NCBI GenBank assembly: GCA_937943575.1
Contig: CALEAV010000007.1
Location: 1 to 64,000 of the forward strand
Source of the DNA: an uncultured bacterium
GTDB lineage: Bacteria; Desulfobacterota; Desulfobaccia; Desulfobaccales; 0-14-0-80-60-11
DNA length: 64,000 nucleotides
Direction: 5' to 3'
The notes under the pieces are model-generated. The model ran no database searches. It was not told the DNA's origin and worked only from the letters and a program-made list of their open reading frames with translations. The position numbers and the translations under genes are program-made. Positions 6,706 through 23,322 of the stretch are shown here, piece by piece (within the stretch, counting starts at the first letter, position 1; each line of letters starts with the position of its first letter).

Positions 6706-6877
6706 GTGGGGGAAGGGCCAGGGTGCGGAAGCTCCCTGCCCTCCCCTCTCCCAACCCTTTATATGACAGCCTCAGCACGACCTGACGCTGCCATAGATAA
6801 TTCATCACCCCAGGTGGGATTGGGGGTGGGCGTGGGGAGGGGGGGAGGGGCCACTGCCCCCTTGGCCTCCTCCCCAC
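6706..6877. repeat. G-rich/C-rich palindromic element, copy 1
   Basis: Left half (6706-6757) reads G-rich then C-rich, ending CTCCCAACCC. Right half (about 6813-6877) reads GGGATTGGGGG then C-rich GGCCTCCTCCCCAC. The two halves match those of the elements at 6962-7136 and 8656-8785. No protein-coding signal is present, and with the copy at 6962 it fills most of the thrC-mvhA interval. Confidence 0.6.
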
Positions 6878-6879
6878 AT

Positions 6880-6915
6880 AAAAAACGGCCGCCCTCCCGT
6901 TAGGGAGAACGGCCG
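6880..6915 (-). terminator. Intrinsic terminator of the hydrogenase operon
   Basis: On the minus strand the arms CGGCCG...CGGCCG and CTCCC/GGGAG form an interrupted hairpin with a TAAC loop, followed directly by six U (A-run at 6880-6885 on the plus strand). It lies about 220 nt downstream of the mvhA stop at 7137, as expected for the end of the hdrA-mvhA transcript. Confidence 0.75.
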
Positions 6916-6961
6916 GCTGGAGGGTTACGGGTAAACGGGAACGATCCCTGCTGATTGCTTT

Positions 6962-7136
6962 GCGGGGGAGGGCCAGGGGCTTCGAAGCCCCTGCCCTCCC
7001 CCCCGCACTCCCTCCCAACCCGCAAAGGATCGCCTGGGAAGGCGGGCTTTCAGCCCGACTTCCCGAGCGATACACCCCCTTGTGGGATTGGGGAGGGGGG
7101 GGTGGGGGGCCCGTGGCCCTTACCCCCTCCCCCACC
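6962..7136. repeat. G-rich/C-rich palindromic element, copy 2 (with insert)
   Basis: The left half forms an outstanding hairpin: GGGGGAGGG and CAGGGGCTT pair with AAGCCCCTG and CCCTCCCCC around a CG turn. It ends in CTCCCTCCCAACCC. About 60 nt follow that are absent from the copy at 8656, including their own GGGCTTTCAGCCC hairpin. Then comes the right half starting TGTGGGATTGGGG and ending in CCCCCTCCCCCACC right at the mvhA stop codon. Confidence 0.65.
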
Positions 7137-8639
7137 TCACCTGGCCGCGCTGATGAGTCGGCCCTGGCTGTCGAAAACCTCGATTTCCACGGTGCGACCG
7201 CCATCCAGGCGGTGGGTGGCGCAGCTCAGTCACGGGTCGTAGCAGCGCACCGCCATCTCCACTCTGTTTAAGGCCTCCTCGGTGACCTGACCGTGGCGGA
7301 TGACGCTTTGGGCCGCCTGGCGGATGCTCATGTTCATGGGGGCCACATTGTGGGTGGTGCCCACAATGAGGTTGGCCCGGGTGATGAGGCCGTTTTTGTC
7401 GGTGGAGTAGTCGTGGATGAGGGTCCCCCGGGGGGCCTCCACGCAGCCCACCCCCCGGCCCGCCTTGGGCTCCACCGGGTTGCGCACCTGGGGGTCGGTG
7501 ATCTCCGGGTCCTCCAGAAGCTCCACCACCTTCTCGCAGGCATAGAGGAGCTCGATGAGCCGGGCCCAGTGATAGAGCATGGTGGATTGGGCCGGCCGCC
7601 CGAAGCGGCTCCGGAACTCCTCCAGCTCCGCCTGGGCCAGGGGCGTGCTGATCCGATCGCAGACATTGAGGCGGGCCAGGGTGTTCACCCGGTAGATGCC
7701 TTTGGGCTGCTCCAGGTCCATGGAGAAGCCCTCCCCCCAGACCCGGGCGTAGGGGAATTTGGAGTAGGCCCAGTCTTCCACGTGCTCGCCCAGGTAATAG
7801 GCGTACTCCAGGTGGCTGAAGTCCTGGTAGGTGCCGTCCGGCTTCATGAGGCGCAGCACACCTTCGTAGAAGGTGAGGGAGCCATCCCGGGGGTCCACCG
7901 TGCCGAGGAAGCCGGTGGTGATCTCCCCCAGGCGCACGGTGGCGTCGTCCAGCTGGGCGAAGACGTTCTTTTTGGCCCAGTCCAGGCAGAACTGGGCAAA
8001 CTCCAGCTGCTCCCGGCTCTTTGCCAGCAGCTCCTGGCGCTCCGCCTCGGTCATGGGCTTGGAGAAGCCGCCCGGCACCACCGCCACCGGGTGGATGACC
8101 TTGCCGGCGAACTTCTCGATCATCATCTGGCCGGCCTGGCGCATCTTCACCACCTGGGTGGCCAGCTCCGGGGCGGCCTTCACCACCCCCAGGACGTTGC
8201 GGACCGAATAATCAGCCCCGGGCCCCAGGACAAAGTCCGGGGCCGCCAGGAAGAAGAAGTGCAGGATCTTGTCATTGATCTGCGCCATCACCAGCATGAG
8301 CTCCCGGAGCTTCCGGCCGGCAGGGGGGACCTGGGCTCCGAAACAGCCGTCCACCGCCTTGTTGGAGGCGGTGTGGTGCATCCAGGGGCAGATGCCGCAG
8401 ATGCGGTTGACGATGCGGGGCACCTCCTCCGCCGGGCGCCCCTCGATGAATTTCTCAAAGCCCCGGAGCGCCATGATGTTGAGGCGGGTGTCCGCCACAT
8501 TGCCCTCGTCGTCCAGCACGATGGCGATGCGGGCGTGGCCCTCGATGCGGGTGATGGGCTGGATGTTGATCACCCGCCGGCCGCTTCCGGCGCCGTGGGC
8601 AAACGCCTTGTCCGCCGTGGCTTCTATAGTCTGTGCCAT
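7137..8639 (-). CDS. mvhA: [NiFeSe]-type hydrogenase large subunit, MvhA/VhuA family (selenoprotein)
   Basis: Catalytic H2-binding subunit of an Mvh-type hydrogenase. The proximal Ni ligand motif RICGIC is at residues 79-84 (Cys81, Cys84). The frame meets TGA at 7230-7232, exactly where the distal motif DPCxxCxxH begins, and continues in frame as DP-U-LSCATH plus 24 residues to a TGA at 7137-7139. Read as selenocysteine, the protein has 500 residues with Sec470, Cys473 and His476; the tail after His476 would be removed on maturation, as is known for this family. A bSECIS-like hairpin follows the UGA. Start ATG at 8639 has AGGAGA upstream. It is the last gene of the operon; a caller ignoring Sec would stop at 7230 and lose the metal-binding C-terminus. 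Confidence 0.94.
7197..7229 (-). promoter_or_regulatory. bSECIS-like hairpin in mvhA
   Basis: Minus-strand stem ACCGCC/GGCGGT (6 bp, perfect) with loop UGGAU. The loop begins 22 nt after the UGA codon at 7230-7232. Known bacterial SECIS elements lie within the coding region just after the UGA, with a G in the first two loop positions; this fits both criteria. Confidence 0.75.
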
Positions 8640-8655
8640 GATGTTCTCCTGAATG

Positions 8656-8785
8656 GTTGTGTGGGGGCCAGGGAGCGTTGCTCCCTGCCCTCCCCCCACC
8701 CCCCTCCCAACCCTGTATGGGATTGGGGGAGGGGAGTGGGGAGGGGGTAAGGGCCCACCGGTCCTTAGCCCCCTCCCCACCTCCT
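8656..8785. repeat. G-rich/C-rich palindromic element, copy 3, inside the hydrogenase operon
   Basis: This fills nearly all of the mvhG-mvhA gap. Left half: GGGGGCCAGGGAGC gtt GCTCCCTGCC then CTCCCAACCC. Right half: TGGGATTGGGGGAGGGG, then TAAGGGCCCACCGGTCCTTA, then CCCCTCCCCACC. It is the most compact copy and defines the two-hairpin layout of the family. It lies directly between the mvhG stop and the mvhA ribosome site. Confidence 0.65.
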
Positions 8786-9730
8786 CTACCTCTCCGCCGC
8801 CCGACGCCGCTGCAGCAGGCCGTGGGCGCCGGAAAATTCCAGCACTGTGGCCCGATCGGTGATGGAGCGCACGTCGATACGGTTACTGGCCAGGGCGTTG
8901 AGGTAGTCCAGCAATTGGTTGCCGTCTTTGCGCACCGGCCCGTAGCAGCCCTGGCAGGGCACCCGGGCCCGGATGCACTGCGGCGCCTCGCCCTGCAGCC
9001 CGGCGCAGCCCGCCCGGGTGACGGGCCCCAGGCACTGGAAGCCCTGCTCCAGCAGGCAGTGCATCTCGCTGATGGGCCTGGCCGGATCGTAATGGGCGTT
9101 GCGGGTGAAGCGGTGCAGCTTTTGCAGCTTGCCCTTCCCCTGCCGGATGGTGGGGCAGGTGTCGCAGACGCTCTTGTCCGGCAGGCGGGGCTCCCGGCCC
9201 TCGAGGAGCGCCACGATGGCCTCGGCGATGAGGTCCGGATGCGGCGGGCAGCCCTGGAGGTAAAAGTCGACCTTGATCTTTTCATCCAGGGCGTAGGTGC
9301 GGTCCAGAATGGGGGGCAGGACCGGATCCGCCGGCGTCTCATGGGGATCGGTGCTTTCGCTGGTGCGGTAGTAGCGCTCCAACAGGGCGGGATTGTCAAA
9401 CAGGTTCATGAGGGCGGGAATCCCCCCGTGGGTGGCGCAGGTGCCCAGGGCGAGGATGATTTCACAGCTCTCCCGCATGGCCTGGGCCACCTCCAGGTGC
9501 TCCTGGTTGCGGATGCCCCCGGAGATGATGCCCACCGTGGCCCGGGGGATCTCCAGATGATGGACATCCCCTTCCCCTGTCTGGCCGAAGTATTTGTGGT
9601 CCATGAGTACCGGGATGTGGACAAACTCCAGGTGGGGCAGAACCTCAAGGAGGGTCTCCCCCAGATTGAGGATGGCCACCTCGCAGCCGGAGCAGGAATT
9701 GAGCCATTCTGAGGCAACTTTGACCGGCAT
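8786..9730 (-). CDS. mvhG: Mvh-type [NiFe] hydrogenase small (electron-transfer) subunit
   Basis: Carries the Fe-S relay from the Ni-Fe site in MvhA to MvhD/HdrA. The 314-residue protein begins at the ATG at 9730 with AAGGAGGG upstream. It has no Tat signal, so it is cytoplasmic. Proximal cluster motif NSCSGC (Cys13, Cys16) is followed by LALGTCATHGG, the QGCPP motif and a C-terminal Cys-rich block (CAGLQGEAPQC, CQGCYG), as in F420-non-reducing hydrogenase subunit G. It follows the FrhB-like gene by 11 nt and is translated before mvhA. Confidence 0.92.
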   Translation of the reverse strand: MPVKVASEWLNSCSGCEVAILNLGETLLEVLPHLEFVHIPVLMDHKYFGQTGEGDVHHLEIPRATVGIISGGIRNQEHLEVAQAMRESCEIILALGTCATHGGIPALMNLFDNPALLERYYRTSESTDPHETPADPVLPPILDRTYALDEKIKVDFYLQGCPPHPDLIAEAIVALLEGREPRLPDKSVCDTCPTIRQGKGKLQKLHRFTRNAHYDPARPISEMHCLLEQGFQCLGPVTRAGCAGLQGEAPQCIRARVPCQGCYGPVRKDGNQLLDYLNALASNRIDVRSITDRATVLEFSGAHGLLQRRRAAER

Positions 9731-9741
9731 GGGACCCTCCT

Positions 9742-10863
9742 TTACCCCTTGACCCTGACGGCGCGGCGCTCCAGCTCGGCATGCCGCGCCGCCGCCCGCT
9801 CCTTCTTTTTGTCGGACCACTCCATGACCTTGGCCAGGGCCTGGTGCGCCAGCTCCTGGCTGCCGACCTCCACGTCCCCCTCCCGGGCGTCGGCCATGAT
9901 CGCCCGGCCCAGGGGGGAGCGCACGATCACCGTGGTCCAGCCCTCCGGCGCGCCGATGCCGCCAAAGGACAGGTCCGCATATTCGGCGGCATAGTCGTCG
10001 CAGTACTGGCAGGCGTAGCGCTTCATGAACTCCAGCTTCTCTAAGGGGATGGTGCGCAGCTCGCCGGATTTCAGATGCACCATCAGGGTTTCCTTGACGT
10101 TGATTTTGCGCACCTCCTCCCAGCGGAACCCCCCCAGCTCCATGAGCCGCCGGCGCTCGGCCTCGCCGAAGTGGAAGTTGCCGGTGCAAAAGAGCCCCAG
10201 GTGCACGGTGATGGAGCCCGCCGGCACGATCCCCAAGACCTCCATGCGCCGCAAGGCGTTGATCTGGCAGGGCGTGCCCACAAAGGCCACCCGGTTGAGG
10301 CGCTTTTTGGCCACCTCCCCCAGCTCGATGATGGAAGGGGAAAACGTGCTGCTCTCCAGGGTGGCATAGACCTTGGAGAAATGGGTCATGCCGTGGATGG
10401 TGTCGAAATGGAACCCGGCGGCGTCCAGGATCTCCTCCCGGGTGATGGCCAGCCAGGGCCAGCGCCGGAATTCCCCCACCTTGCGGCTGACGATGGCCCC
10501 GTCGATGCGGCCCAGATCAAAGAGGTGCAGGAGCAGGGCAGTCACCACCCCGCCGTCCGTGCCCCGGGCCAACACCCCGGGGTCGGCGGCCCGGGCCACC
10601 TGGGTGCTGAGAATGCGGCCCATGGGCGCGCTCCAGGACACCAGGCGCTTGGTCTCCTCGTCCAGCTCGTGAATCTCCGGACAGATGGAGTAGCACAGGC
10701 CGCATTCAATGCACTTCTCGATGTCCTTGTAGCGGGGGCGGCCGTCCTCCCCCAGCTCCAGGGCGCCGTAATTGATGGCGGTGCAGAAGGTCACGCAGCC
10801 GCCGCAATGGTGGCACAGCCCCGGCTTCTGCACCTCCTGGATGAGATGAAAAAAGGTCTTCAT
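9742..10863 (-). CDS. FrhB-family flavin/Fe-S oxidoreductase (F420 hydrogenase beta-like)
   Basis: 373 residues. The N-terminus carries two ferredoxin-like clusters: CHHCGGCVTFC (Cys17, 20, 23, 27) and CIECGLCYSIC (Cys51, 54, 57, 61). The FrhB domain follows, with GTDGGVVTALLLHL, FVGTPCQINALR and LGLFCTGNFHF, and a C-terminal Cys pair YACQYCDDY. The family binds FAD and passes electrons between Fe-S partners and a soluble carrier (F420 in methanogens; other acceptors in bacteria). The carrier here is unknown. Start ATG at 10863 has GGAGGAGG upstream. It lies between mvhD and mvhG, so it is probably a component of the same complex. Confidence 0.88.
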   Translation of the reverse strand: MKTFFHLIQEVQKPGLCHHCGGCVTFCTAINYGALELGEDGRPRYKDIEKCIECGLCYSICPEIHELDEETKRLVSWSAPMGRILSTQVARAADPGVLARGTDGGVVTALLLHLFDLGRIDGAIVSRKVGEFRRWPWLAITREEILDAAGFHFDTIHGMTHFSKVYATLESSTFSPSIIELGEVAKKRLNRVAFVGTPCQINALRRMEVLGIVPAGSITVHLGLFCTGNFHFGEAERRRLMELGGFRWEEVRKINVKETLMVHLKSGELRTIPLEKLEFMKRYACQYCDDYAAEYADLSFGGIGAPEGWTTVIVRSPLGRAIMADAREGDVEVGSQELAHQALAKVMEWSDKKKERAAARHAELERRAVRVKG

Positions 10864-10880: not shown

Positions 10881-11324
10881 TCAGCCGGCAGCTTCCGCCA
10901 GCTCCGCTCTTAGCGGCCTCAGCGGATTGGGCCCCAACGCCCGGATCTTCTCGACAAACTGCGTCACCACCTGGGCAAACCGGGGAGCCTCGGCGGACGA
11001 CACCCATTCCAGCGCATAGCGCTCCGGGTCAAGATTCAGGGTCTCCAACACCAGCCGGGTGGCTTCAAAACGCGACAGGGCTTTGTAATTACCATCCAGG
11101 TAATGACAGTCACCCAGATGTCACCCCATCACCAATACCCCATCCACCCCCCGGCTCAGCGCCTTCACCACCAGCTCCGGATGCACCATGCCGGAACAAT
11201 TCACCCGGATCACCCTGAGATTGGGCGGATACTGCAAACGGGACACTCCCGCCAGGTCCGCCCCGGCATACGCACACCAGTTGCACAAAAAACCCAGCAC
11301 CACCGGTTCAAATGTCTCTTCCAT
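10881..11324 (-). CDS. mvhD: Hydrogenase delta subunit MvhD, selenocysteine-containing
   Basis: MvhD is the [2Fe-2S] protein that links Mvh hydrogenase (or other donors) to HdrA. The 147-residue product has LGFLCNWCAYAGADLAG (Cys14, Cys17), VNCSGM (Cys43) and then VMG-U-HLGDCHY. The codon at 11121-11123 is TGA and is read here as Sec68, replacing the first Cys of the conserved G-C-x4-C cluster motif (Cys73 is the second). The frame continues normally to a TGA at 10881. A perfect hairpin follows the UGA. Start ATG at 11324 has AAGGAGG upstream. Without Sec decoding the gene would be cut at 67 residues. Confidence 0.93.
11088..11120 (-). promoter_or_regulatory. bSECIS-like hairpin in mvhD
   Basis: Minus-strand stem AUUACC/GGUAAU (6 bp, perfect) with loop UGGAU starting 22 nt after the UGA at 11121-11123. 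Loop sequence and spacing are identical to the hairpin in mvhA, although the stem sequences differ (compensatory). Confidence 0.78.
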
Positions 11325-11448: not shown

Positions 11449-14400
11449 CTACAGCGCCTCCAGCACGGCCTCCACCTGGGCCTCCAGCTGGGGCAGGGTG
11501 AAGCCGTGCACGGTGATGCCCTCCTTGGGGCAGGTGGCCTCGCACAGGCCGCAGCCCTTGCAGAGGGCCTTGTCGCTCGCCACCCGCCGGTGGCGGCGGC
11601 CGTCCTCGCCCTGGTAGTCCTCCAGTTTCAGGGCCAGATACGGGCAGACGTCCACGCACAGGCCGCAGCCGTCGCAGTGGCTGGTAACCTCGCTCTTGAT
11701 GGCATCCAGCTCCATGGCGCTTCGGGCCAGAATGATGCCGGCCCGGGTGGCGGCCGCCTTGGCCTGGCTGACGGCCTCCTCCAAAGGTTTGGGATGGTGG
11801 CAGAGGCCGGCCAGAAACACCCCGTCCACGGTGGAGTCCACCGGCCTCAGTTTGGGGTGGGCTTCATTGAAGAAGCCGTCCTCGTTGACGCTCAGTTTGA
11901 AGAGCTCCACCAGCCCCCCGGGGTCGTGGGGCCTGATGCCGCTGGCCAGCACCAGATAGTCGGGGGCAAGCTGCACCGGCAGCCCCAGGATGGGGTCGGT
12001 CACTGTCACCTGGAGCCGGCCGTCGGCCTCCCTTACCTGGGGCTTGTTCTCCAGGGTGTAGGGGATAAAGATCACCCCCAGCTCCCGGGCCTTGGTGGCG
12101 AGGGTCTCCCGCAGGCCGTAGGTGCGAAGGTCCCGGTAGAGGATGTAGACGGGTTTGTCCGGGTCCAGCTCCTTGAGGCGGATGGCGTTCTCCACCGAGT
12201 GGGTGCAGCAGGTGCGGCTGCAGTACATGCGTCCCGGCTCCCGGGAGCCCACACACTGGATGAAGACCACCGGGCCGGCGGCCTTGAGGTCCGCCGGTTT
12301 TTCCCGGAGCAGGGCGTCCAGCTCCAGGGCGGTGAGCACCCGGGGGTGCCGGCCGTAGAGATATTCCTCAGGCTTGTACTCCTGGCCGCCGAGGGCCAGG
12401 ACCGCCACCCCAAAGGAGAGGCTGCGGCTCTCCCCGGCCACGCTGACCTCGCTCCGGAAATTGCCCACCGAGCCGGAGACGCTTGTCAGTTCCGCCTGTT
12501 TCAGGACCTGGATCTTGGGGTGGTTCTCCACCTGGGCGATGAGGGTGGTGAGGAAGGGCCGCACCTCCTCCCCCTTCCAGGTGCGGTTGAGGTGCCAGGC
12601 GTTGCCGCCCAGCTTGTCGGTCTTTTCCAGCAGGGTGACGGCATAGCCCTGTTCCGCCAGCTCCAGGGCCGCAGTCAGGCCGGCGACGCCCCCGCCCACC
12701 ACCAGGGCCTGCTGCACCACCGGCACCGCCTCCCGGGTCAGAGGGTAGTCCAGGGCCGCCTTGGCCACCGCCATGCGCACCTGGTCCCGGGCCTTCAGGG
12801 TGGCATAGGCGGGGTTGTGCTGGTGCACCCAGGAGCCCTGGTTCCGGATGTTGGCCATCTCCACCAGATAGGGGTTGAGACCCGCCTCCCGGAGGGTGTC
12901 CTGAAACAGGGCCTCATGGGTGCGGGGCGTGCAGGCGGCGATGACGATGCGGTTGAGGTTCAGCTCCCTAATCTTGGCGGCGATGAGGTCCTGGGTGTCG
13001 GTGGAGCAGGTGAAGAGATTGTTCTCCACGAAGGCCACATGCGGCAGAGTGCGGGCATACTCCGCCAGCCCCTTGACGTCGATGACCCCGGCGATGTTGA
13101 TGCCGCAGGAGCAGATGAACACCCCGATGCGGGGTTCGTCGGCGGAGACGTCCCGCTCCGGCGGGTAGGTCTTCTCCCGGGTGAGGGTGCCCCGGGCCGC
13201 GACCAGGCTCCGGGCCGCCTCGCCCGCCGCCGCCGAGGCGTCCATCACCGCCCGGGGGATGGACTTGGGGGATTCGGCGGCGCCGCAGACATAGATGCCG
13301 GGCCGGGAGGTGGCCACCGGATTGAAGCCGTTGGTGGCCACAAAGCGGAACTGGTTCAGGTCCAGGGCGGCGGTGCGGGCCAGCTCCTGGGCGGAATCCG
13401 GGGCCTCCAGGCCCACGGAGAGCACCGCCAGGTCGAAGTCCTCCCGGCGCGGGCGGCCGTCCTCCCCCACATATTCCACCTGCACCCCCCGGTTCTTGGG
13501 GCCGGGGAGGAGGCTGTGGGGCCGGGCCCGGACGAAGCGCACCCCCTTGGCCTGGGCGTTGACGTAATAGCGCTCGAATTCCTTGTTGTGGGCCCGCAAG
13601 TCCATGTAAAAGATGGTGGTCTCGGCGCCGGGGAGGTGGTCGGCGGTGACCAGGGCCTGCTTCACCGCGTACATGCAGCAGACGGTGGAGCAGTAGGGGT
13701 TGCCCCGACCGTCCTGGCTGCGGGAGCCGACGCATTGGATCCAGGCCACCCGCCTGGGCTCCTGGTGGTCCGACGGCCGGATCAGGTGCCCCTGGAAGGG
13801 GCCGCCGGCGGAGAGGAGCCGCTCGTACTCCAGGCCGGTGACCACATCGGGCACCCGGCCGTAGCCGTAGGGGGCCAGCACCCCGGGGTCGAAGGGGCGG
13901 TAGCCCGGGGCCAGGATCAGGGCCCCCACCTTCAGGGTGACGGTCTCTCCTTGATCCTCAAAGTTGATGGCGCCGGTGGGACAGAACTTCTCGCAGGCCT
14001 TGCACTTGCCCTTGGCAAAGTAGAGGCAGGCGTCCGGATCGATGGCGTATTTCAGGGGGACCGTCTGACTGTAGTAGATGTAGATGGCCTTGCGCTTGCC
14101 CACCCCGAGATTGTAGTCGTCGGCCACCTTTTTGGGGCATTTCTCGGCGCACAGCCCGCAGGCGATGCACTTGTCCGGGTCGACGTATCGGGGGTTTTTC
14201 CGCAGGGTGACGGTGAAATTGCCGGGGCCGCCGTGGATCTCGGCCACCTGGGACAGCGTGTGCAGCTCAATGTTCAAGTGCCGACCGCACTCGACCAACT
14301 TGGGCGACAGAATTCACATGGCGCAGTCGTTGGTCGGGTAGGTCTTGTCCAGTTGGGCCATCTTGCCGCCGATGCCGGCCTTGGCCTCCACCAAGTGGAC

Positions 14401-14757
14401 GTAGTAGCCGGAGTCGGCCAGATCCAGGGCGGCCTGGATGCCGGCGATGCCGCCGCCCACCACCATAACCGCACCCACCACATTTCCTGTCATGTTGTCC
14501 TCCCGGGTTGCTGGGGCAGCCTGCCTGGGGACCAGGCGGGGTTGGGCCTCCCGCCCTCCGCCCACCTCCCGGGGGGCCAGGGCCTCGGGGTCCAGGTGGA
14601 ACTCCTGGCAGAGGTGGGCCAGGTCTTCCGGGGTGAAGACCAAGCCCTTGCCGGGTCCGGGACGGCAAGGCAGGCGGCCGCTCTTCACCCAGTTGCGGAT
14701 GGTGTTGCGGTGGACACCGATGGCTTTGGCCAGGGCCACGAGGTGGACCACAAACAT
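11449..14757 (-). CDS. hdrA: HdrA, long double-flavin form, with N-terminal HTH; selenocysteine-containing
   Basis: Flavin-based electron-bifurcating subunit of heterodisulfide-reductase-type complexes. The frame from ATG 14757 (ribosome site AAGGAG) gives 1102 residues. Residues 1-57 are an excisionase/MerR-like HTH ([17 protein letters not shown]). After a Pro/Arg-rich linker, the HdrA body starts at an internal Met (14493) with its own GGAGGA site 4 nt upstream. From that Met: FAD motif VVGGGIAG (11-18), then NDCAM-U-ILSP with TGA at 14314-14316 read as Sec60, where homologues have Cys; ferredoxin motifs [11 protein letters not shown] and CKACEKFC; a second FAD domain ([13 protein letters not shown]); and C-terminal clusters [11 protein letters not shown] and [11 protein letters not shown]. 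HdrBC are not adjacent. First gene of the operon. Confidence 0.92.
14280..14313 (-). promoter_or_regulatory. bSECIS-like hairpin in hdrA
   Basis: Minus-strand stem GUUGGUCG/CGGUCGGC (8 pairs including several G-U) with loop AGUG starting 22 nt after the UGA at 14314-14316. The spacing equals that in mvhA and mvhD and a G occupies loop position 2. The pairing is weaker than in the other two because of the wobble pairs. Confidence 0.6.
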
Positions 14758-14931: not shown

Positions 14932-16347
14932 CTACCAGCCGTAGGTCAGGAAATCATGGATGGAGTTGCTGGCCAGACGGCCGGCGCCCATGGCCAAAAT
15001 GACCGTGGCCGCACCGGTGACGATGTCCCCCCCGGCCCAGACCCGGGGCTTCATGGTCTTGCCGGTCTTGGGATCGGCGATGATGTAGCCCCACTTGTTG
15101 AGGGCCAGGCCCGGGGTGGCCTTGGTGAGCAGGGGGTTGGCCCCGGAGCCGATGGCGATGACCGCGGTGTCGATCTCCACGATGAACTCCGAGCCCGGAA
15201 TGGGAATGGGGCGCCGGCGGCCGGAGGCGTCGGGTTCCCCCAGCTCCATCTTCAGGCATTCCACCCCGGTGAGGTAGCCGTCTTCGTTGCCCAGGAAGCG
15301 CACCGGGTTGGTGAGGAAGAGGAATTCCACCCCCTCCTCCTCGGCGTGGTGGATCTCCGCCGCCCGGGCCGGCAGCTCGGCGTGGGAGCGCCGGTAGATG
15401 ATGTAGGAGTGCTCGGCCCCCATGCGCAGGGCGGTGCGGGCTGCGTCCATGGCCACGTTGCCGCCCCCGAAGGTGGCCACCTTCTTGCCCCTCACCAGCG
15501 GCGTGTCGTAGTTGGGGAAGTCGTAGGCCCGCATCAGGTTGGAGCGGGTGAGGTATTCGTTGGCGGAATAGACCCCGATATAGTGCTCCCCGGGGATATT
15601 GAGGAACATGGGCAGGCCGGCCCCCACCCCCAGAAAGACGGCGTCGAAGCGCTCCAGGAGCTCATCCACCGTCTCGGTGCGCCCGATGACCGCGTTCACC
15701 TCAATCTTGACGCCCAGGCGCTCGAGATACCGGCACTCATGGGCCACGATCTCCTTGGGGAGGCGGAACTCCGGGATGCCGTAGATGAGCACCCCGCCCG
15801 GGGCATGCAGGGCCTCAAAGATGGTGACCTCGTGGCCCTTGAGGATGAGGTCGCCGGCCACGGTGAGACCTGCGGGGCCGGAGCCCACCACCGCCACCTT
15901 CTTGCCGGTGGGCGGCGCCTTGGGGGGCAGGATGTCCCGGCCGTGGAGGCGCTGGTAATCGGCGGCGAAGCGCTCCAGGTTGCCGATGGCCACCGGCTCG
16001 TCCTTTTTCCCCACCACGCACAGGCCTTCGCACTGAATCTCCTGGGGGCAGACCCGGCCGCACACCGCCGGCAGGGAGTTCTTCTCCCACAGCTTGCGGA
16101 TGGCCGCCTCAAAATCCCCTTCCTTGATGAACTTGATGAAGCCGGGGATGTCGATCTCCACCGGGCAGCCCTGCTTGCAGCGGGGGTCCTTGCACTGGAT
16201 GCAGCGCTCCGCCTCCTTCATGGCCAGCTCGGGGGTGTAGCCGTAGGGCACCTCGTTGAAATTATGGCGCCGGACCTGGGGGTCCTGCTCCGGCATCTTC
16301 TGCCGGGGGATCTTCTCTTTTTTCGGAGCCTTGACTTCTTCAGACAT
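14932..16347 (-). CDS. nfnB: NfnB-type NADH-dependent ferredoxin:NADP+ oxidoreductase, large subunit
   Basis: 471 residues of the GltD-like family. An N-terminal Fe-S domain (CIQCKDPRCKQGC, then CGRVCPQEIQCEGLC) leads into two dinucleotide folds: FAD site VAVVGSGPAGLTVAG and NAD(P) site VATFGGGNVAMDAA. In NfnAB this subunit carries the bifurcating FAD and the NADPH site; the complex couples NADPH oxidation to NAD+ and ferredoxin reduction, or the reverse. Pairing with the ferredoxin-NADP reductase-like gene 26 nt upstream (nfnA) favours NfnB over a stand-alone glutamate synthase small subunit. Start ATG at 16347 has a GGAG-type site upstream. Confidence 0.87.
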   Translation of the reverse strand: MSEEVKAPKKEKIPRQKMPEQDPQVRRHNFNEVPYGYTPELAMKEAERCIQCKDPRCKQGCPVEIDIPGFIKFIKEGDFEAAIRKLWEKNSLPAVCGRVCPQEIQCEGLCVVGKKDEPVAIGNLERFAADYQRLHGRDILPPKAPPTGKKVAVVGSGPAGLTVAGDLILKGHEVTIFEALHAPGGVLIYGIPEFRLPKEIVAHECRYLERLGVKIEVNAVIGRTETVDELLERFDAVFLGVGAGLPMFLNIPGEHYIGVYSANEYLTRSNLMRAYDFPNYDTPLVRGKKVATFGGGNVAMDAARTALRMGAEHSYIIYRRSHAELPARAAEIHHAEEEGVEFLFLTNPVRFLGNEDGYLTGVECLKMELGEPDASGRRRPIPIPGSEFIVEIDTAVIAIGSGANPLLTKATPGLALNKWGYIIADPKTGKTMKPRVWAGGDIVTGAATVILAMGAGRLASNSIHDFLTYGW

Positions 16348-16373
16348 GCGTCATCTCCTCCCTTGTGTCTCGG

Positions 16374-17228
16374 TCAGCTCTTGTGGGAGCAGCCCTGCCC
16401 CAGGCTGGCTTTGAAGCGGTCGTAGGCCAGCTTCTCTTCCGGCAGATAGGAACGCAGCCTCAGGGTGAGCTCGTCGAAGTCCACCTGATGGCCGTCAAAC
16501 TCGGGGCCGTCCACGCAGGCGAACTGCATCCTGCCGCCCACCTGCACCCGGCAGCAGCCGCACATGCCGGTGCCGTCCAGCATGATGGGGTTGAGGCTCA
16601 CCAGGGTCTTGACGCCGAACTCCTTGGTCATCTGGCTGCAGAACTTCATCATGGGCACCGGGCCGATGCACACCGCCAGGCCGATGTCCCGGTTCTCGGT
16701 GAGGACCTTCTTCAGCATCTCGGTGACGAAGCCCTTGTGCCCGTAAGAGCCGTCATCGGTGCAGATATGCAGCTCGTGGGAGGCGGCCCGCATCTTGTCC
16801 TCCAGGATGAGCAGCTCCTTGGTGCGGGCGCCGATGATGGCGATGACGTGGTTGCCCAACTGCTTCAGCCCCCGGGTGATGGGGTGCAGCACTGCGATGC
16901 CGGTGCCGCCGCCGACGCAGACCACCTTCCCCACTTTCTCCAGGTGGGTGGGCTGCCCCAGGGGCCCGATGACGTCAAGATACGCATCCCCCACCTTCAG
17001 GGTCTTGAACAGGGCGGTGCTCTTGCCCACCACGGCGTAGATGATGTTGATGAGACCCCGTTCCGGATCGGTGTCGGCCATGGTCAGGGGGATGCGCTCC
17101 CCCGTCTCGTTGGCCCGCAGGATGACGAACTGGCCCGGTTTGGCTTTCTTGGCAATCTTGGGGGCCCTGACCCAGTTGCTGATGATGGTGCCCTGGGCCA
17201 TTTCCTCGCGTTCCACAATTTCAAACAT
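16374..17228 (-). CDS. nfnA: NfnA-type subunit (ferredoxin-NADP+ reductase-like, SudB family)
   Basis: 284 residues, homologous in layout to PyrK/ferredoxin-NADP reductase: an FAD-binding barrel (PGQFVILRANETGERIPLTMAD), an NAD-binding domain (VCVGGGTGIAVLHPI) and a C-terminal Cys cluster for one [2Fe-2S] (CGCCRVQVGG, with a further Cys in MQFACVDGPEF). In NfnAB this subunit binds NAD(H). It is the first gene of the nfn pair; the ATG at 17228 has GGAG about 6 nt upstream. A Crp/Fnr-like palindrome lies about 120 nt upstream. Reading it as a sulfide dehydrogenase (SudB) is the main alternative. Confidence 0.87.
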   Translation of the reverse strand: MFEIVEREEMAQGTIISNWVRAPKIAKKAKPGQFVILRANETGERIPLTMADTDPERGLINIIYAVVGKSTALFKTLKVGDAYLDVIGPLGQPTHLEKVGKVVCVGGGTGIAVLHPITRGLKQLGNHVIAIIGARTKELLILEDKMRAASHELHICTDDGSYGHKGFVTEMLKKVLTENRDIGLAVCIGPVPMMKFCSQMTKEFGVKTLVSLNPIMLDGTGMCGCCRVQVGGRMQFACVDGPEFDGHQVDFDELTLRLRSYLPEEKLAYDRFKASLGQGCSHKS

Positions 17229-17349
17229 AGGCGCATCTCCTCACTTCGGGAAAATGGTGGCCTCGCCTTGCCACTCCCCCAGGCTGTCGGCGGAACGGCC
17301 CGCTGCTCTTGTAATCGTATCCTCTTACCACGGCCGCCTGCCGGGGTTC

Positions 17350-17367
17350 AAGTGATAAATATCACAA
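17350..17367. promoter_or_regulatory. Crp/Fnr-family binding-site-like palindrome upstream of nfnA
   Basis: The sequence GTGATAAATATCAC (17352-17365) is an inverted repeat with half-sites GTGA and TCAC six bases apart, flanked to give AGTGA-N6-TCACAA. This is close to the TGTGA-N6-TCACA consensus of Crp-type regulators and the TTGTGA-N6-TCACAA consensus known for HcpR in sulfate reducers. It lies in the fhs-nfnA gap (17229-17558), which otherwise holds the fhs terminator and no gene. Confidence 0.55.
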
Positions 17368-17477
17368 TTATCAAAAAGAGGGAAGCGGCCGCCGGGCCCG
17401 GTAGGCCCGCCCCCAAGGCCGCCCCCTGCCATCCGGCCGGTCCGGTCTGCAGGGGAGGCCCGAGAGGGGACCCCCCC

Positions 17478-17514
17478 AAAAAAAGGCCGGCCTCCCCCAC
17501 AAGAGAAGCCGGCC
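17478..17514 (-). terminator. Intrinsic terminator of fhs
   Basis: On the minus strand the arms GGCCGGCTTCTC and GGGAGGCCGGCC pair over 12 positions (two G-U) around a 6-nt loop, followed by seven U. It starts 44 nt after the fhs stop. A 13-nt direct repeat (GCGCCCGGCCGGG) lies just beside it at about 17516 and 17530. Confidence 0.88.
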
Positions 17515-17558
17515 GGCGCCCGGCCGGGGAGCGCCCGGCCGGGAGGAAGGGTAGCTCC

Positions 17559-19343
17559 TTAGAAGAGGCCGATGACCTTGCCGGTCTTGACGTCCACATC
17601 CACCCGCCGGAAGGCCGGGTCGGAGGCGGTGCCGGGCATGAGGCTGATGGCGCCGCACACCGGGCAGATGAACTTGGCGCCGCTGTAGACCAGGAAGTCC
17701 CGGACGGGGAGCCGCCAGCCCTTGGGCACGCCCTTCTTGGTGGGGTCGTGGCTGAGGCTCAGGTGGGTCTTCACCATCATGGTGGCGTATTCGTTGTACT
17801 TGGGATCCTTCTCGAAGCGCTCGGCCTTGGCCACCGCTTCGGGGAGGAAGTCCACCCCGTCGGCGCCGTAGACTTCCTTGGCGATGACTTCCACCCGCTG
17901 GCGCAGGGGCATCTCATTGGGATAGAGGAACTTGAAGTCGTTCTTCTCCTTGCAGGCCTCCATGACCGCGTCGGCGAATTCCAGGGCGCCTTCGCCGCCG
18001 AACTGCCAGTGCCGGGAGACCGCCACCCGGGCCCCTTCGGCCTCGCACACCCGGCGGATGAGGTCGTGCTCCTCTTTGGAGTCGAAATGGAAGGCGTTGA
18101 TGCACACCACCGGGTTGATGCCCGCCTTCTTGATGGTGCGGATATGGTGCACGGCGTTCTGGACGCCGTCTTCCAGCCACTTGAAGGTCTGGGGCGACGC
18201 TTCGAAGTATTCCTTGGGGATGGGCTTGCCGGGCGGGCAGGGGAGGGCCCCGGCGTTGACGCCGTGGTGCTTGAGACCCCGCACCGTGGTGGTGAGCACC
18301 GCCACATGGGGTTTGAGGCCGCTGAAGCGGCATTTCACGTTCCAGAACTTCTCAAAGCCGATGTCGGCGCCGAAGCCCGATTCGGTGACGTGGTAGTCAA
18401 AGAGCTTCAGGCCGATCTGGTCGGCGATGATGGAGGACTGGCCCACGGCGATGTTGGCGAAGGGACCGGCGTGCACAAAGACCGGCTGCTTCTCCACCGT
18501 CTGCATGAGAGTGGGGTTGATGGAGGGCACCATCCAGGCGGTCATGGCATTGCCCACTTCCAGGTCGCCGGTGGTGATGGGGTTGCCCCGCTTGTCATAG
18601 CACACGGTGATGTTGTTGAGGCGCTCCTTCAGGTCGGCCAGGGAGGTGGTGATGGACAGGATGGCCATGACCTCCGAGGACACCGCAATGCCGAACTTGG
18701 AGGCCATCATGAAGCCATCCATCTTGCCGCCGATGCCGATGATGATGTTGCGCAGCGCCTGGGCGCAGAAGTCGATGATCCAGCCCATCTCGAAGTTCTT
18801 GGGGTCAATGTCCAGGCGCTTCAGGTTCCGCTTCGCCAGCTGCTCATCGGTGTAGTTGAACTCATGCTGCAGGCGGGAGGTGGCGGCCACCATGGCCAGG
18901 TTGTGGGCGTTCATGATGTTGTTGATGTCGCCCGTCAACCCCAGGGAGAACTCGGTCATGGGGATGAGGAGCGAAATGCCGCCGCCGGCCGCCGTGCCCT
19001 TGATGTTCATGGTGGGGCCGCCGGAGGGTTGCCGGAGGGCCCCGCCGACGTTCACCCCCCGCTTGCCCAGACCCTCAATGAGACCCAGGGAGGTGGTGGA
19101 TTTGCCCTCGCCCAGGGGGGTGGGGGTGATGGCGGTGACGTCGATGTAGTAGCCGTCGGGTTTGTCCTTCAGGCGCTCCAGGCACTTCAGGTAGTCCACG
19201 CGACCGATTTTCTGCCCGTAGGGGATGCGCTCCTCCTTGGGGATGCCCAGCATCTCGCACATGTCGTCGAAGGGGATCATCTCCGCTTCGGCGATTTCGG
19301 CGATCTGCCAGTCTTTCATGGTGACCGGATCATACTTTGCCAT
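17559..19343 (-). CDS. fhs: Formate--tetrahydrofolate ligase
   Basis: Makes 10-formyl-THF from formate, ATP and THF; the entry step of the Wood-Ljungdahl methyl branch (or its exit when run in reverse). At 594 residues it is slightly longer than the usual 555-590. The P-loop-like [12 protein letters not shown] is at 73-84, followed by the family's [20 protein letters not shown] segment and later [13 protein letters not shown] and CRxxG-type THF regions. Start ATG at 19343 has AAGGAGG upstream. It is a single-gene transcript with its own promoter and terminator, divergent from metV-metF. Confidence 0.95.
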
Positions 19344-19398
19344 AAACTCGCCTCCTTCAGATTAGGGGTATTGCCTCCATAGGCTTCCCACCGGCTTC

Positions 19399-19458
19399 AG
19401 CGCTGGCGTACACGCGCAGAAAGCCTTCATGAGTCCTGGCCCCCACCGCGCCAGCGCT
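19399..19458 (-). promoter_or_regulatory. Structured leader of fhs mRNA
   Basis: The predicted 130-nt fhs leader contains a perfect 10-bp long-range stem, AGCGCTGGCG (19449-19458) with CGCCAGCGCT (19399-19408) on the minus strand, enclosing 40 nt. I compared it with the THF and ZTP (pfl) riboswitch signatures as I remember them and saw no match, so class and function are unknown. The rest of 19344-19705 holds the two divergent promoters. Confidence 0.4.
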
Positions 19459-19482
19459 CATGCTTTTTTTCACATATGCCCC

Positions 19483-19511
19483 CTTTTAGACGAGAGCCTG
19501 GGGTTTGTCAA
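19483..19511 (-). promoter_or_regulatory. Sigma-70-type promoter of fhs
   Basis: On the minus strand TTGACA (19506-19511), 17-nt spacer, TAAAAG (19483-19488). It predicts a start near 19476 and a leader of about 130 nt. Confidence 0.65.
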
Positions 19512-19570
19512 CAAATATTTTGCCCCAGGAACGCTTTTCCCTTCCCGCCTCCCGGCCCGGGATTTTTGGT

Positions 19571-19599
19571 TTGACAAAGATTTTCCGGCTCCCTACAAT
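19571..19599 (+). promoter_or_regulatory. Sigma-70-type promoter of metV-metF
   Basis: TTGACA (19571-19576), 17-nt spacer and TACAAT (19594-19599), one of the best consensus promoters in the window. It drives metV, whose start lies 107 nt downstream. Confidence 0.78.
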
Positions 19600-19705
19600 G
19601 TGAAGAGAATTACAAAAAGGGGACCGCTCCCGGCCAGGCGCCGGGGCCTGAACGGAAGCATGGTTTTCTACCCGAACCCGGGGCCCCCGGGTTTAGGAGG
19701 ATGGC

Positions 19706-20377
19706 ATGGTAGTCGCGGAATCCAAGCCTGTCAGCGAAATCCTGGAGATGATCAAGGACTGCAAGAAAGTGGTGGTGGCCGGATGCAAAGGCTGCGTCAC
19801 CGTCTGCAACTCCGGCGGCGAAAAGGAAGTGGGCATCCTGGCCTCAGAGTTGCGTCTGGCCCGCAAGGTGGCCGGCACCGACCTGGAGGTGCTGGAATAC
19901 ACCTGCGAGCGCCAGTGTGACCCGGAATACATCGAGCCCCTGGACGATTTGGTCAAGGATGCGGACGCAGTGGTCTCCATCGCCTGCAGCGTCGGACCCC
20001 AGTACATCGCCGCCCGGTATCCCTTCCTGCCGGTGTTCCCGGGCCTCAACACCGTCTTCATCGGCGGCGCCGCCGAACACGGCGTCTGGAAGGAGTATTG
20101 CCAGGCCTGCGGTCAGTGCATCATCGGGGATTTCGGCGGATTGTGCCCCGTGGCCCGCTGCGCCAAGTCCCTGATGAACGGCCCCTGCGGCGGCTCCTCG
20201 GGGGGCAAATGCGAAGTGGGCAAGGGCACCATCGACTGCATCTGGCATCTCATCTATGAGCGCCTCAAGAACCTGGGGCAGCTCTCCAGGCTGGAAAACC
20301 CCTGGGGCTTCAAGAACTGGTCCACCAGCCGGGACGGCGGGCCCCGCACCATGATCCGGGAGGAGTTACGGAAATGA
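19706..20377 (+). CDS. metV: MetV, zinc/iron-sulfur partner of methylene-THF reductase
   Basis: 223 residues, homologous to the MetV subunit of acetogen MetFV reductases. Cys-rich N-terminus VAGCKGCVTVCNSGG (Cys27, 30, 34), then YTCERQC, then a C-terminal set YCQACGQC and GGLCPVARCAKSLMNGPCGG, which resembles the MTHFR-C domain. In Moorella, MetV joins MetF to HdrABC-MvhD. Start ATG at 19706 has an AGGAGG site 5 nt upstream. The stop overlaps the metF start by 4 nt (ATGA), so the two are translationally coupled. Confidence 0.92.
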   Translation: MVVAESKPVSEILEMIKDCKKVVVAGCKGCVTVCNSGGEKEVGILASELRLARKVAGTDLEVLEYTCERQCDPEYIEPLDDLVKDADAVVSIACSVGPQYIAARYPFLPVFPGLNTVFIGGAAEHGVWKEYCQACGQCIIGDFGGLCPVARCAKSLMNGPCGGSSGGKCEVGKGTIDCIWHLIYERLKNLGQLSRLENPWGFKNWSTSRDGGPRTMIREELRK

Positions 20378-21306
20378 CACTGACGGCCGGGAGCAAACTG
20401 GAAAAGATCTTGAAAAGCGGCCAAAAGGCCGTCACCTGCGAATGCGGTCCGCCCCGGGGCGCCGACGCCGAGCATTTCCGCCACAAGGCCTCCTTCCTCA
20501 AGGATGTCGCCGACGCGGTGAACGTTACCGACAACCAGACCGCGGTGGTGCGCTTCTGTTCCCTGGCGGCCTGCCGCATTCTTCTGGATATGGGCATCGA
20601 GCCGGTGATGCAGATGGTCACCCGGGACATGAACCGCATCGCCCTGCAGAGCAATGTCCTGGGCGCCGCCGCCCTGGGCATCAAAAATCTCCTCTGCCTT
20701 ACCGGCGACCACAACTCCTTCGGCGACCATCCCCAGGCCAAAAACGTCCACGACCTGGACTCGGTGCAGCTTTTGGCCGCGGTCAGGGGCATGCGGGATG
20801 ACGGCAGGATGATCAGCGGCACCGAGGTGGTGGGGCGGCCCCAGATGTTTCTGGGCGCCGCGGTGAACCCCTTTGCCGACCCCTTCGAGTTTAGGGTGGT
20901 GCGCATGGCCAAGAAGGTCAAGGCCGGCGCCCAGTTCGTCCAGACCCAGTGCATCTATGACATGGAGCGCTTCGCCAAGTTCATGCAGATGGCCAATGAC
21001 ATGGGCCTGACGGAGCAGTGCTACGTCCTGGCTGGGGTCACCCCCTTCAAGAGCGTGGGCATGGCCAACTACATGAAGAAGTTCGTCCCCGGCATGCTGG
21101 TGCCCGACTCCTACATCCAGCGCCTCAAAGGCGTGCCCAAAGAGAAGCAGGCGGAGGAGGGCATCAAGATCGCCGTGGAGCAGATCCAGCAGCTCCTGGA
21201 GATGAAGGGGGTGGCCGGCATCCACCTCATGGCCATCGAATGGGAGGAGCGGGCGCCGGAGATCCTCAAGGCCGCCGGGCTGGTGCCGCGGCCCCAGGTG
21301 GATTGA
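20374..21306 (+). CDS. metF: Methylenetetrahydrofolate reductase
   Basis: Reduces methylene-THF to methyl-THF using FAD. 310 residues forming a single TIM-barrel MTHFR domain: N-terminal TCECGPPRGADAEHF (catalytic Glu region), NVTDNQ, LCLTGDHN, GAQFVQTQCIYD and LAGVTPFKS. It is typical of the short anaerobe MetF that works with MetV, not the NAD(P)H-dependent long form. A strong terminator follows at 21363, before cooS. Confidence 0.94.
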   Translation: MTLTAGSKLEKILKSGQKAVTCECGPPRGADAEHFRHKASFLKDVADAVNVTDNQTAVVRFCSLAACRILLDMGIEPVMQMVTRDMNRIALQSNVLGAAALGIKNLLCLTGDHNSFGDHPQAKNVHDLDSVQLLAAVRGMRDDGRMISGTEVVGRPQMFLGAAVNPFADPFEFRVVRMAKKVKAGAQFVQTQCIYDMERFAKFMQMANDMGLTEQCYVLAGVTPFKSVGMANYMKKFVPGMLVPDSYIQRLKGVPKEKQAEEGIKIAVEQIQQLLEMKGVAGIHLMAIEWEERAPEILKAAGLVPRPQVD

Positions 21307-21362
21307 CGCCCCCGACCCGGGGCTGGGCCAGGAGGCAGCGGCCCCAATGTGTCGTCATCGTC

Positions 21363-21398
21363 GCCCGGCCCAAAGAGATGGGGGCCGGGCTTTTGTTT
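21363..21398 (+). terminator. Intrinsic terminator after metF
   Basis: Perfect 9-bp stem GCCCGGCCC/GGGCCGGGC (21363-21371 and 21382-21390) with a 10-nt loop, followed by TTTTGTTT. It lies between metF and cooS, 40 nt before the cooS start, so it either separates the two units or attenuates cooS. Confidence 0.85.
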
Positions 21399-21429
21399 CT
21401 GTGCCTGGACAAACCATGGAGGTGCGGTG

Positions 21430-23322
21430 ATGGATCACCGGGAAGGATCAACACAGGCGATCTCCATTCAGGCGGACACCCTGGCCCTGGCGCAGCAGGC
21501 CCGCAGCCAGGGGGTGGCCACGGTCTGGGACCGGGCCCGGGCCCAGGAGCCCCAATGCGGCTTCTGCTCCTTGGGCTTGAGCTGCCGCATCTGCGTCATG
21601 GGCCCCTGCCGCATCGACCCCTTCGGCGAGGGCCCCACCCACGGCATCTGCGGGGCGGATGCCGACATCATGGTGGCAAGGAACCTCGGGCGCATGATCG
21701 CCGCCGGGGCCGCCTCCCATTCGGACCACGGCCGGGATCTGGTGGAGACCCTCCACGCCGTGGCGGAGGGCCGGGCCCCGGGCTATCAGATCACCGACCC
21801 GGCCAAGCTGGAGCGCCTGGCGGTGGAATTCGGCGTGGACGGCAGCCTGCCGGTCCTCGACAAGGCCAAGGCCCTGGCTGAGGCCCTGATGGAGGAATAC
21901 GGCATCAGGAAAGGCCACCTCACCTTCAGCCGGCGCCTCCCCGCCCCCCGGCTGGCCAAATGGCAGGCCCTGGGCATCGCCCCCCGGGGGGTGGACTGGG
22001 AAGTGACGGAGATGATGCACCGCACCCACATGGGGGTGGACAACGACTACGTGAATCTCCTCCTGCAGGCCCTGCGCTGCGCCCTGGCCGACGGCTGGGG
22101 CGGCTCCATGATCGCCACCGAGATCTCCGACGTGCTCTTCGGCACCCCCACCCCCATCCCCAGCGAGGTGAACCTCGGGGTCCTCAAGCAGGACCAGGTG
22201 AACATCATCCTCCACGGCCACAGCCCCCTGGTGAGCGAGATGGTGGTTCGGGCCGCCCAGGACCCGGCCCTGCTCAACCGCGCCCGGGAGCTGGGGGCCC
22301 AGGGCATCAACCTGGCGGGCCTGTGCTGCACCGGCAATGAGGTGCTGATGCGCAAGGGCATCCCCATGGCCGGCAACCACCTGGTGCAGGAGCTGGCCAT
22401 CCTCACCGGCGTGGTGGAGGCTATGGTGGTGGATTATCAGTGCATCATGCCGGCGGTGGCGGAAGTGGCCGCCTGCTACCACACCCTGTTCTTCACCACC
22501 TCGGCCAAGGCCAAGTTCCCCAAGGCGGTGCACCTGCCCTTCAGCCCGGACAACGGCGAGACCCTGGGCCGGGAGCTGGTGAGCCGGGCGGTGGAGAACT
22601 TCCCCCGCCGCAACCCGGCCAAGGTATTTCTGCCCGCCGGCCAGGCGGTGCGGCAGGTGAGCGGCTTTTCCGTGGAGGCCATCCTCGCCGCCCTGGGGGG
22701 CACGCCGGAGCCACTCCTCGACGCCCTCAAGGCGGGCCGGATCCGGGGCGCCGCGGCAGTGGTGGGCTGCAACAATCCCAAGGTCACCCAGGACCTGGGC
22801 CACACCACCATCACCAAAGAGCTCATCGCCCACGACATCCTGGTGCTGGACACCGGCTGCACCGCGGTGGCCACCGCCAAGGCCGGCCTCAAACAGCCGG
22901 AGGCCGCCGCCCAGGCGGGCCCGGGGCTGAGGGCCGTGTGCGAGGCCCTGAAGATCCCGCCGGTGCTGCACATGGGCTCCTGCGTGGACAACACCCGCAT
23001 CATCAATCTGGTGGCGGCCCTGGCCAACGCCCTGGGGGTGGACGTGGACCAGCTCCCGGTGGCCGCCGCGGCCCCGGAGTGGTACTCCGAAAAGGCCGCC
23101 GCCATCGGCTGCTACGCCGTGGCCACCGGGGTGTTCACCGTCCTGGGGGTGACTCCCCCGGTCCTGGGGAGCAAAAACGTCACCGAGCTGCTGCTGTCGG
23201 GGTTAAAGGACCATCTGGGGGCCTGCTTTGCGGTGGAGCCCGACCCCAAGAAGGCCGCGGCCCTGATGATCCGCCACATCGAGGAAAAGCGGCAAGCCCT
23301 GGGGCTGGACAGCCGCCTCTAG
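21430..23322 (+). CDS. cooS: Anaerobic carbon monoxide dehydrogenase catalytic subunit
   Basis: Oxidises CO to CO2 or reduces CO2 at a Ni-Fe-S C-cluster. 630 residues. The N-terminal D/B-cluster ligands are in CGFCSLGLSCRICVMGPC (Cys43, 46, 52, 55, 60). C-cluster regions include ICGAD, LCCTGNEVLMR, VVGCNNPKV, LVLDTGCTAVATAKAG, HMGSCVDNTRI and IGCYAVATGVFT. No acsB, cooC, cooF or acs corrinoid genes adjoin it. ATG at 21430 has GGAGG 8 nt upstream. Location beside metVF suggests a Wood-Ljungdahl role, but a mono-functional CO-oxidising CooS cannot be excluded. Confidence 0.94.
   Translation: MDHREGSTQAISIQADTLALAQQARSQGVATVWDRARAQEPQCGFCSLGLSCRICVMGPCRIDPFGEGPTHGICGADADIMVARNLGRMIAAGAASHSDHGRDLVETLHAVAEGRAPGYQITDPAKLERLAVEFGVDGSLPVLDKAKALAEALMEEYGIRKGHLTFSRRLPAPRLAKWQALGIAPRGVDWEVTEMMHRTHMGVDNDYVNLLLQALRCALADGWGGSMIATEISDVLFGTPTPIPSEVNLGVLKQDQVNIILHGHSPLVSEMVVRAAQDPALLNRARELGAQGINLAGLCCTGNEVLMRKGIPMAGNHLVQELAILTGVVEAMVVDYQCIMPAVAEVAACYHTLFFTTSAKAKFPKAVHLPFSPDNGETLGRELVSRAVENFPRRNPAKVFLPAGQAVRQVSGFSVEAILAALGGTPEPLLDALKAGRIRGAAAVVGCNNPKVTQDLGHTTITKELIAHDILVLDTGCTAVATAKAGLKQPEAAAQAGPGLRAVCEALKIPPVLHMGSCVDNTRIINLVAALANALGVDVDQLPVAAAAPEWYSEKAAAIGCYAVATGVFTVLGVTPPVLGSKNVTELLLSGLKDHLGACFAVEPDPKKAAALMIRHIEEKRQALGLDSRL

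Follow-up and report, generated by a model that had tools for sequence, protein, structure and literature searches.

The window analysed here, a 64,000 nt stretch of contig CALEAV010000007.1 from an uncultured Desulfobaccales bacterium, carries a hydrogenase large-subunit gene whose reading frame is interrupted by UGA within the distal nickel-binding motif. The question raised by this locus is whether the codon ends the protein or is decoded as selenocysteine (Sec). The first-pass annotation had placed TGA 7230–7232 in the context DP-TGA-LSCATH, with 30 further residues before a normal stop. Both observations are confirmed; the codon lies on the minus strand and the stop is itself a TGA (7137–7139). 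Its reading of UGA as Sec is supported by the Sec machinery of the genome, by a covarying SECIS and by the presence of UGA in 74 homologues, and its view of the enzyme as NiFeSe finds strong support at the sequence level. The gene, mvhA, almost certainly encodes a cytoplasmic group-3c [NiFeSe] hydrogenase in which this UGA is decoded as Sec by way of the SECIS. Its features are as follows.

7137–8639, minus strand: mvhA, group-3c [NiFe(Se)] hydrogenase large subunit by Pfam, NCBIfam and PDB matches, about 500 aa including the in-frame UGA
7230–7232, minus strand: Sec-UGA codon, which opens the distal Ni-binding motif U-x-x-C-x-x-H
7197–7213, minus strand: predicted bacterial SECIS of mvhA, ACCGCC-UGGAU-GGCGGU stem-loop (covariation and fit to the bSECIS model)
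7140–7211, minus strand: C-terminal extension past the CATH His, 24 codons, presumed cut by a HycI-type endopeptidase (tail lengths, codon usage)

A ribosome-binding-like AGGAG is found 5′ of the mvhA ATG. Read through with Sec (U), the protein ends ...VEMAVRCYDP-U-LSCATHRLDGGRTVEIEVFDSQGRLISAAR, exactly 30 residues beyond U and then the terminator. MvhA matches PF00374 (Pfam), its best NCBIfam match is VhuA NF041785 (E = 1e-145) and its best PDB matches are VhuA/MvhA chains. The score of 485 bits falls below the 800-bit VhuA equivalog cut-off, which defines VhuA proper and not group 3c; MvhA is homologous to VhuA but no strict equivalog. The HysA model cut-off is missed as well (165 vs 780 bits). 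The proximal motif RxCGxC is present as RICGIC, whose C88 and C91 do not vary across alignment A2, and the distal motif DP(C/U)xxCxxH as DP-U-LSCATH. The gene shares an operon with mvhG, mvhD and hdrA, one of the traits by which group 3c is recognized.

The continuation past UGA is not due to chance, because it aligns with the C-terminus of solved MvhA proteins, which show Cys at the UGA position (DPCLSCATH), and with VhuU (NF041786, E = 2.6e-9). Among the fetched MvhA relatives, the site codon is TGA in 74 genes and TGC or TGT (Cys) in 63. The in-frame UGA thus falls where homologues have a conserved Cys, as is typical of a selenoprotein gene.

The SECIS has a 6-bp stem that begins 16 nt past UGA and a UGGAU loop 22 nt past it. 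Published bSECIS rules give G at the first two loop positions and a spacing of 16–37 nt (PMC13188914), and the mvhA element, with a spacing of 22 nt, agrees with them. Among fetched loci, all five inner pairs form in 72/74 UGA genes vs 1/62 Cys genes, and the loop is TGGAT or TGGAC (UGGAY) in 74/74 UGA genes. An alignment of 43 UGA genes, which shares some genomes with the all-loci collection so that the counts are not fully independent, shows 92.9% paired cells in the stem and compensatory, both-side changes at 3 stem pairs (9 cells), a level reached by 0/500 shuffles. Because the pairs are kept in UGA genes and not in Cys genes, and because compensatory changes are present, the stem-loop is by sequence comparison a bacterial SECIS element. 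Folding of the single sequence gives a stability ordinary for its composition (z = −0.56), therefore the case for the SECIS rests on comparison. A search of the genome with the eukaryotic SECIS model RF00031 showed no match, nor did Rfam show a SECIS match in the window or in the 7000–7400 stretch. To our knowledge there is no Rfam family for bacterial SECIS, thus these blanks carry no weight against the mvhA element.

The SECIS encodes HRLDGG, starting with the CATH His, and forms the first codons of the tail. [NiFe] large subunits are normally cut after this His during maturation, and two HycI-type endopeptidase genes are present in the genome. The Leu codon at position 8 past UGA is CTG in 74/74 UGA genes, and the first Gly of HRLDGG is GGC in 69 of 73; both are variable in Cys genes. 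A conserved Leu at −13 is written with at least four different codons. Since the Leu and Gly codons are fixed in UGA genes but varied in Cys genes, the presumably discarded tail appears to be constrained at the RNA level. In every UGA gene with a readable end, the tail is 22 residues or longer. Three Cys-type genes (L087, L088 and L099) have no extension past CATH/CATM and presumably no endopeptidase step; being three of about 60 Cys genes, they are only suggestive of a tail kept because the SECIS must be held. UGA is absent from the genome's other large-subunit genes of the superfamily (C20 and C15). One of these, a second [NiFe] hydrogenase large subunit (G000:C20:10449–11720), is followed by its own HycI protease gene (C20:11866–12216).

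It is very unlikely that UGA is a true stop, leaving MvhA to end at DP without its distal Ni ligands, or that it is read through only incidentally. Three relatives from one family (f39: L085, L090 and L091) do end at or just past the distal DP and have no distal Cys pair. However, these display TAA, TAG or lost sequence at the site, not TGA, and no conserved tail, whereas in the window the 30 codons past UGA remain intact and homologous, with a covarying SECIS. The three relatives may be hydrogenases that have decayed or taken on another role; in L090 the second proximal Cys is gone as well (ICGISS). L076, a close relative of all three, displays the intact Sec form.

Less likely still is an assembly error or a pseudogene mutation of a Cys codon. 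A single base change from TGC would yield the mvhA TGA and the source assembly is fragmented (62 contigs), but UGA recurs at the same codon in the 74 fetched homologues, among them the isolates Desulfocarbo, Desulfoprunum and Desulfosediminicola with a SECIS in each, and this recurrence refutes an error. A misread TGC, named by the first-pass annotation as what would count against Sec, is thus very improbable for a codon kept across many independent genomes.

The same annotation had proposed a search for selA, selB, selC and selD, and all four are found in the genome above their cut-offs: tRNA-Sec (selC) at 73.8 bits (ARAGORN tRNA-SeC, anticodon TCA), SelA at 619 bits, SelB at 352 bits over the full model length and SelD at 365 bits. 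The SelD open reading frame (L008, G000:C2:12650–13567) has an in-frame UGA of its own at the UxxK position (AAGUAAK). A genome-wide reassignment of UGA to another amino acid, for which nothing speaks beyond the mvhA read-through, can be set aside, because UGA still terminates mvhA, mvhD, GPI, NfnA, MetV and MetF, and the Sec machinery is complete.

The mvhA UGA is not alone: two other genes of the operon contain an in-frame UGA as well. Neither the mvhD and hdrA UGAs nor the 2006 report of a Sec operon (PMC1794560) was mentioned in the first-pass annotation. The remaining features of the operon are these.

8786–9730, minus strand: mvhG, hydrogenase small subunit
9742–10863, minus strand: FrhB/FdhB-like flavin/Fe-S subunit, between mvhD and mvhG
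10881–11324, minus strand: mvhD with in-frame UGA 11121–11123 (G-U-HLGDCHY) and terminator TGA 10881–10883
11088–11104, minus strand: predicted mvhD SECIS, ATTACC-UGGAU-GGTAAT, spacing and loop as in mvhA, stem sequence different
11449–14493, minus strand: hdrA, two fused HdrA units, 1014 aa, in-frame UGA 14314–14316 (PTNDCAM-U-ILSPKL)
14276–14292, minus strand: probable hdrA SECIS, GAGTGC-GGUCG-GCACTT, stem beginning 21 nt past UGA, a weaker candidate
14932–16347, minus strand: NfnB/GltA-like NADPH-binding subunit
16374–17228, minus strand: NfnA-like FAD/NAD-binding subunit

The minus-strand order is formate-THF ligase (Fhs), NfnA, NfnB, HdrA, MvhD, FrhB-like, MvhG and MvhA. Divergent genes on the plus strand encode a MetV-like protein, MetF and CO dehydrogenase; the MetV-like identity is our own reading, as there is no family match. 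The NfnAB, formate-THF ligase, MetV-like/MetF and CO dehydrogenase genes (14932–23322) form a Wood-Ljungdahl neighbourhood. Neither HdrB nor HdrC was found at about 7–24 kb of the window. The FrhB-like insertion is found in 21/74 Sec-MvhA loci vs 0/63 Cys loci. Intergenic segments at 6720–7130 and 8640–8785 are similar in appearance, with C-runs and G-runs flanking several genes, and are possibly a dispersed repeat.

The mvhD UGA aligns with residue 67 of Methanothermobacter MvhD, and across loci its stem forms in 52/53 UGA mvhD genes vs 4/55 Cys genes. The hdrA UGA is residue 60 and aligns with Cys197 of M. wolfeii HdrA (5odc); the exact stem register is kept in 35/53 UGA hdrA genes. Cys197 is described as reaching across to the partner HdrA to ligate its N-terminal Fe-S cluster (PMC9012536). 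The first unit of the fused HdrA carries the Sec197 site but no N-terminal domain, and the second unit carries the N-terminal domain while its alignment stops short of any Cys197 equivalent. This predicted layout fits the self-complementing HdrA pair of PMC9012536, in the opposite order. Among the 54 Sec-MvhA loci with all three sites read, the MvhA/MvhD/HdrA pattern is U/U/U in 42, U/C/U in six, U/C/C in four and U/U/C in two. Three loci (L147 of Dehalococcoidales, L162 and L164) have Cys MvhA but Sec HdrA and/or MvhD, thus the occurrence of Sec in the electron-transfer subunits extends beyond its occurrence at the nickel.

A mechanism can be proposed for the complex. SelB and tRNA-Sec would decode UGA 7230–7232, directed by the UGGAU-loop stem-loop just inside the tail codons. 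Sec would replace the first Cys of the distal CxxC and serve as a nickel ligand, and the SECIS-bearing tail would then probably be removed past CATH by a HycI-type endopeptidase. Electrons from H2 would travel by way of MvhG to MvhD, which holds the second Sec, and on to the HdrA flavin (third Sec, at the Cys197 position), so that three Sec probably lie along one H2-to-flavin electron path. From the flavin, the electrons may reach ferredoxin and probably NAD(P), in the context of the Wood-Ljungdahl pathway.

The MvhA tree bears on the origin of the Sec form. One tree was rebuilt without L182 and L183, which are wrong open reading frames (one too short, one an extreme long branch). The 133-row tree explains 64 Sec MvhA proteins with a total of two changes. 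In the 50-row tree the Sec MvhA clade has a support of 100/98 and includes one Cys row (L087). Closest to this clade stand Cys proteins of Planctomycetota, Acidobacteriota, Aminicenantes, Chloroflexota and others. The archaeal comparison consists of PDB chain 9sfi, which we regard as archaeal VhuA in its VhuU-paired Sec form, and two Cys archaeal chains. Forcing Sec MvhA together with 9sfi is 56 log-likelihood units worse (p-AU 8.7e-6), a result that involves one archaeal Sec sequence. A search for methanogen VhuA in 243 genomes of the sampled archaeal phylum, with other Thermoplasmata among the matches, gave none over the VhuA cut-off. The 2006 proposal was that the Sec operon had been acquired from Sec-decoding archaea (PMC1794560). 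The tree speaks against an archaeal origin, at least for MvhA and with one archaeal Sec sequence compared. It is somewhat probable that Sec at the group-3c nickel arose at least twice, in methanogens (VhuU) and in an ancestor of the sulfate-reducing and related deltaproteobacteria, the latter from a Cys enzyme with a bacterial SECIS written into the cleaved tail and not by transfer of a ready-made archaeal operon.

Because standard gene calling ends MvhA at the active site and cuts MvhD and HdrA, it would give wrong annotations for the entire H2-oxidising complex. The 74 genes form a tractable SECIS family, and the Sec and Cys forms offer a natural comparison at the nickel of a cytoplasmic, electron-bifurcating-type hydrogenase. 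The proposed transfer of a Sec operon from archaea to bacteria also becomes testable, and the MvhA tree points to an independent bacterial origin.

Several known systems can be compared. HysAB [NiFeSe] of Desulfovibrio and Desulfomicrobium shares the Sec Ni ligand and a DPUxxCxxH-type motif with MvhA, but is a periplasmic, group 1 enzyme. The effects of Sec on O2 recovery (PMC10779653) and on H2 affinity, named in the first-pass annotation, come from such HysAB-type periplasmic enzymes rather than from group-3c ones. Methanothermobacter wolfeii MvhADG-HdrABC (5odc), an electron-bifurcating complex, has homologous MvhA, MvhD and HdrA; however, it carries Cys at all three sites and includes HdrBC, whereas the window operon has Sec codons and no adjoining HdrBC genes. 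The archaeal group-3c [NiFeSe] enzyme of Methanococcus, Vhu/VhuU, has the same residue in a UxxC motif, and archaea that use Sec have it in VhuD and HdrA too. Unlike the window MvhA, VhuU forms a small subunit of its own, and the MvhA tree does not unite the archaeal and bacterial enzymes. Archaeal SECIS elements differ from bacterial ones and have been reported from untranslated regions.

The closest likenesses are bacterial. Desulfobacterium autotrophicum HRM2 was reported in 2009 to have Sec MvhA2DG clustered with Sec HdrA1 (PMC2702500), likewise a cytoplasmic Sec Mvh hydrogenase beside a Sec HdrA; that cluster neighbours HysAB, whereas no HysAB gene is found in about 5–24 kb of the window. 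In 2006, Zhang & Gladyshev reported from Syntrophobacter fumaroxidans and Desulfotalea psychrophila an operon with the layout glpC-hdrA-frhD-frhG-frhA in which MvhA/FrhA, MvhD/FrhD and HdrA all contain Sec (PMC1794560), and this operon also appears in a 2026 review (PMC13188914). The window shares with the 2006 operon the three Sec subunits in order with frhG/mvhG (HdrA-MvhD-MvhG-MvhA), a fused or tandem HdrA and a bacterial SECIS. It differs in having an FrhB-like gene between mvhD and mvhG, and in having NfnB, NfnA and Fhs upstream of hdrA and no glpC beside it. Thus this kind of Sec operon is already known in deltaproteobacteria, and the window adds the FrhB-like insertion and NfnAB in place of glpC. 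Also added here are a single deltaproteobacterial clade of Sec MvhA that lies within Cys proteins, a tree test with one archaeal sequence that rejects a clade shared with archaeal Sec VhuA, and the RNA constraint on a tail that is presumed to be cleaved.
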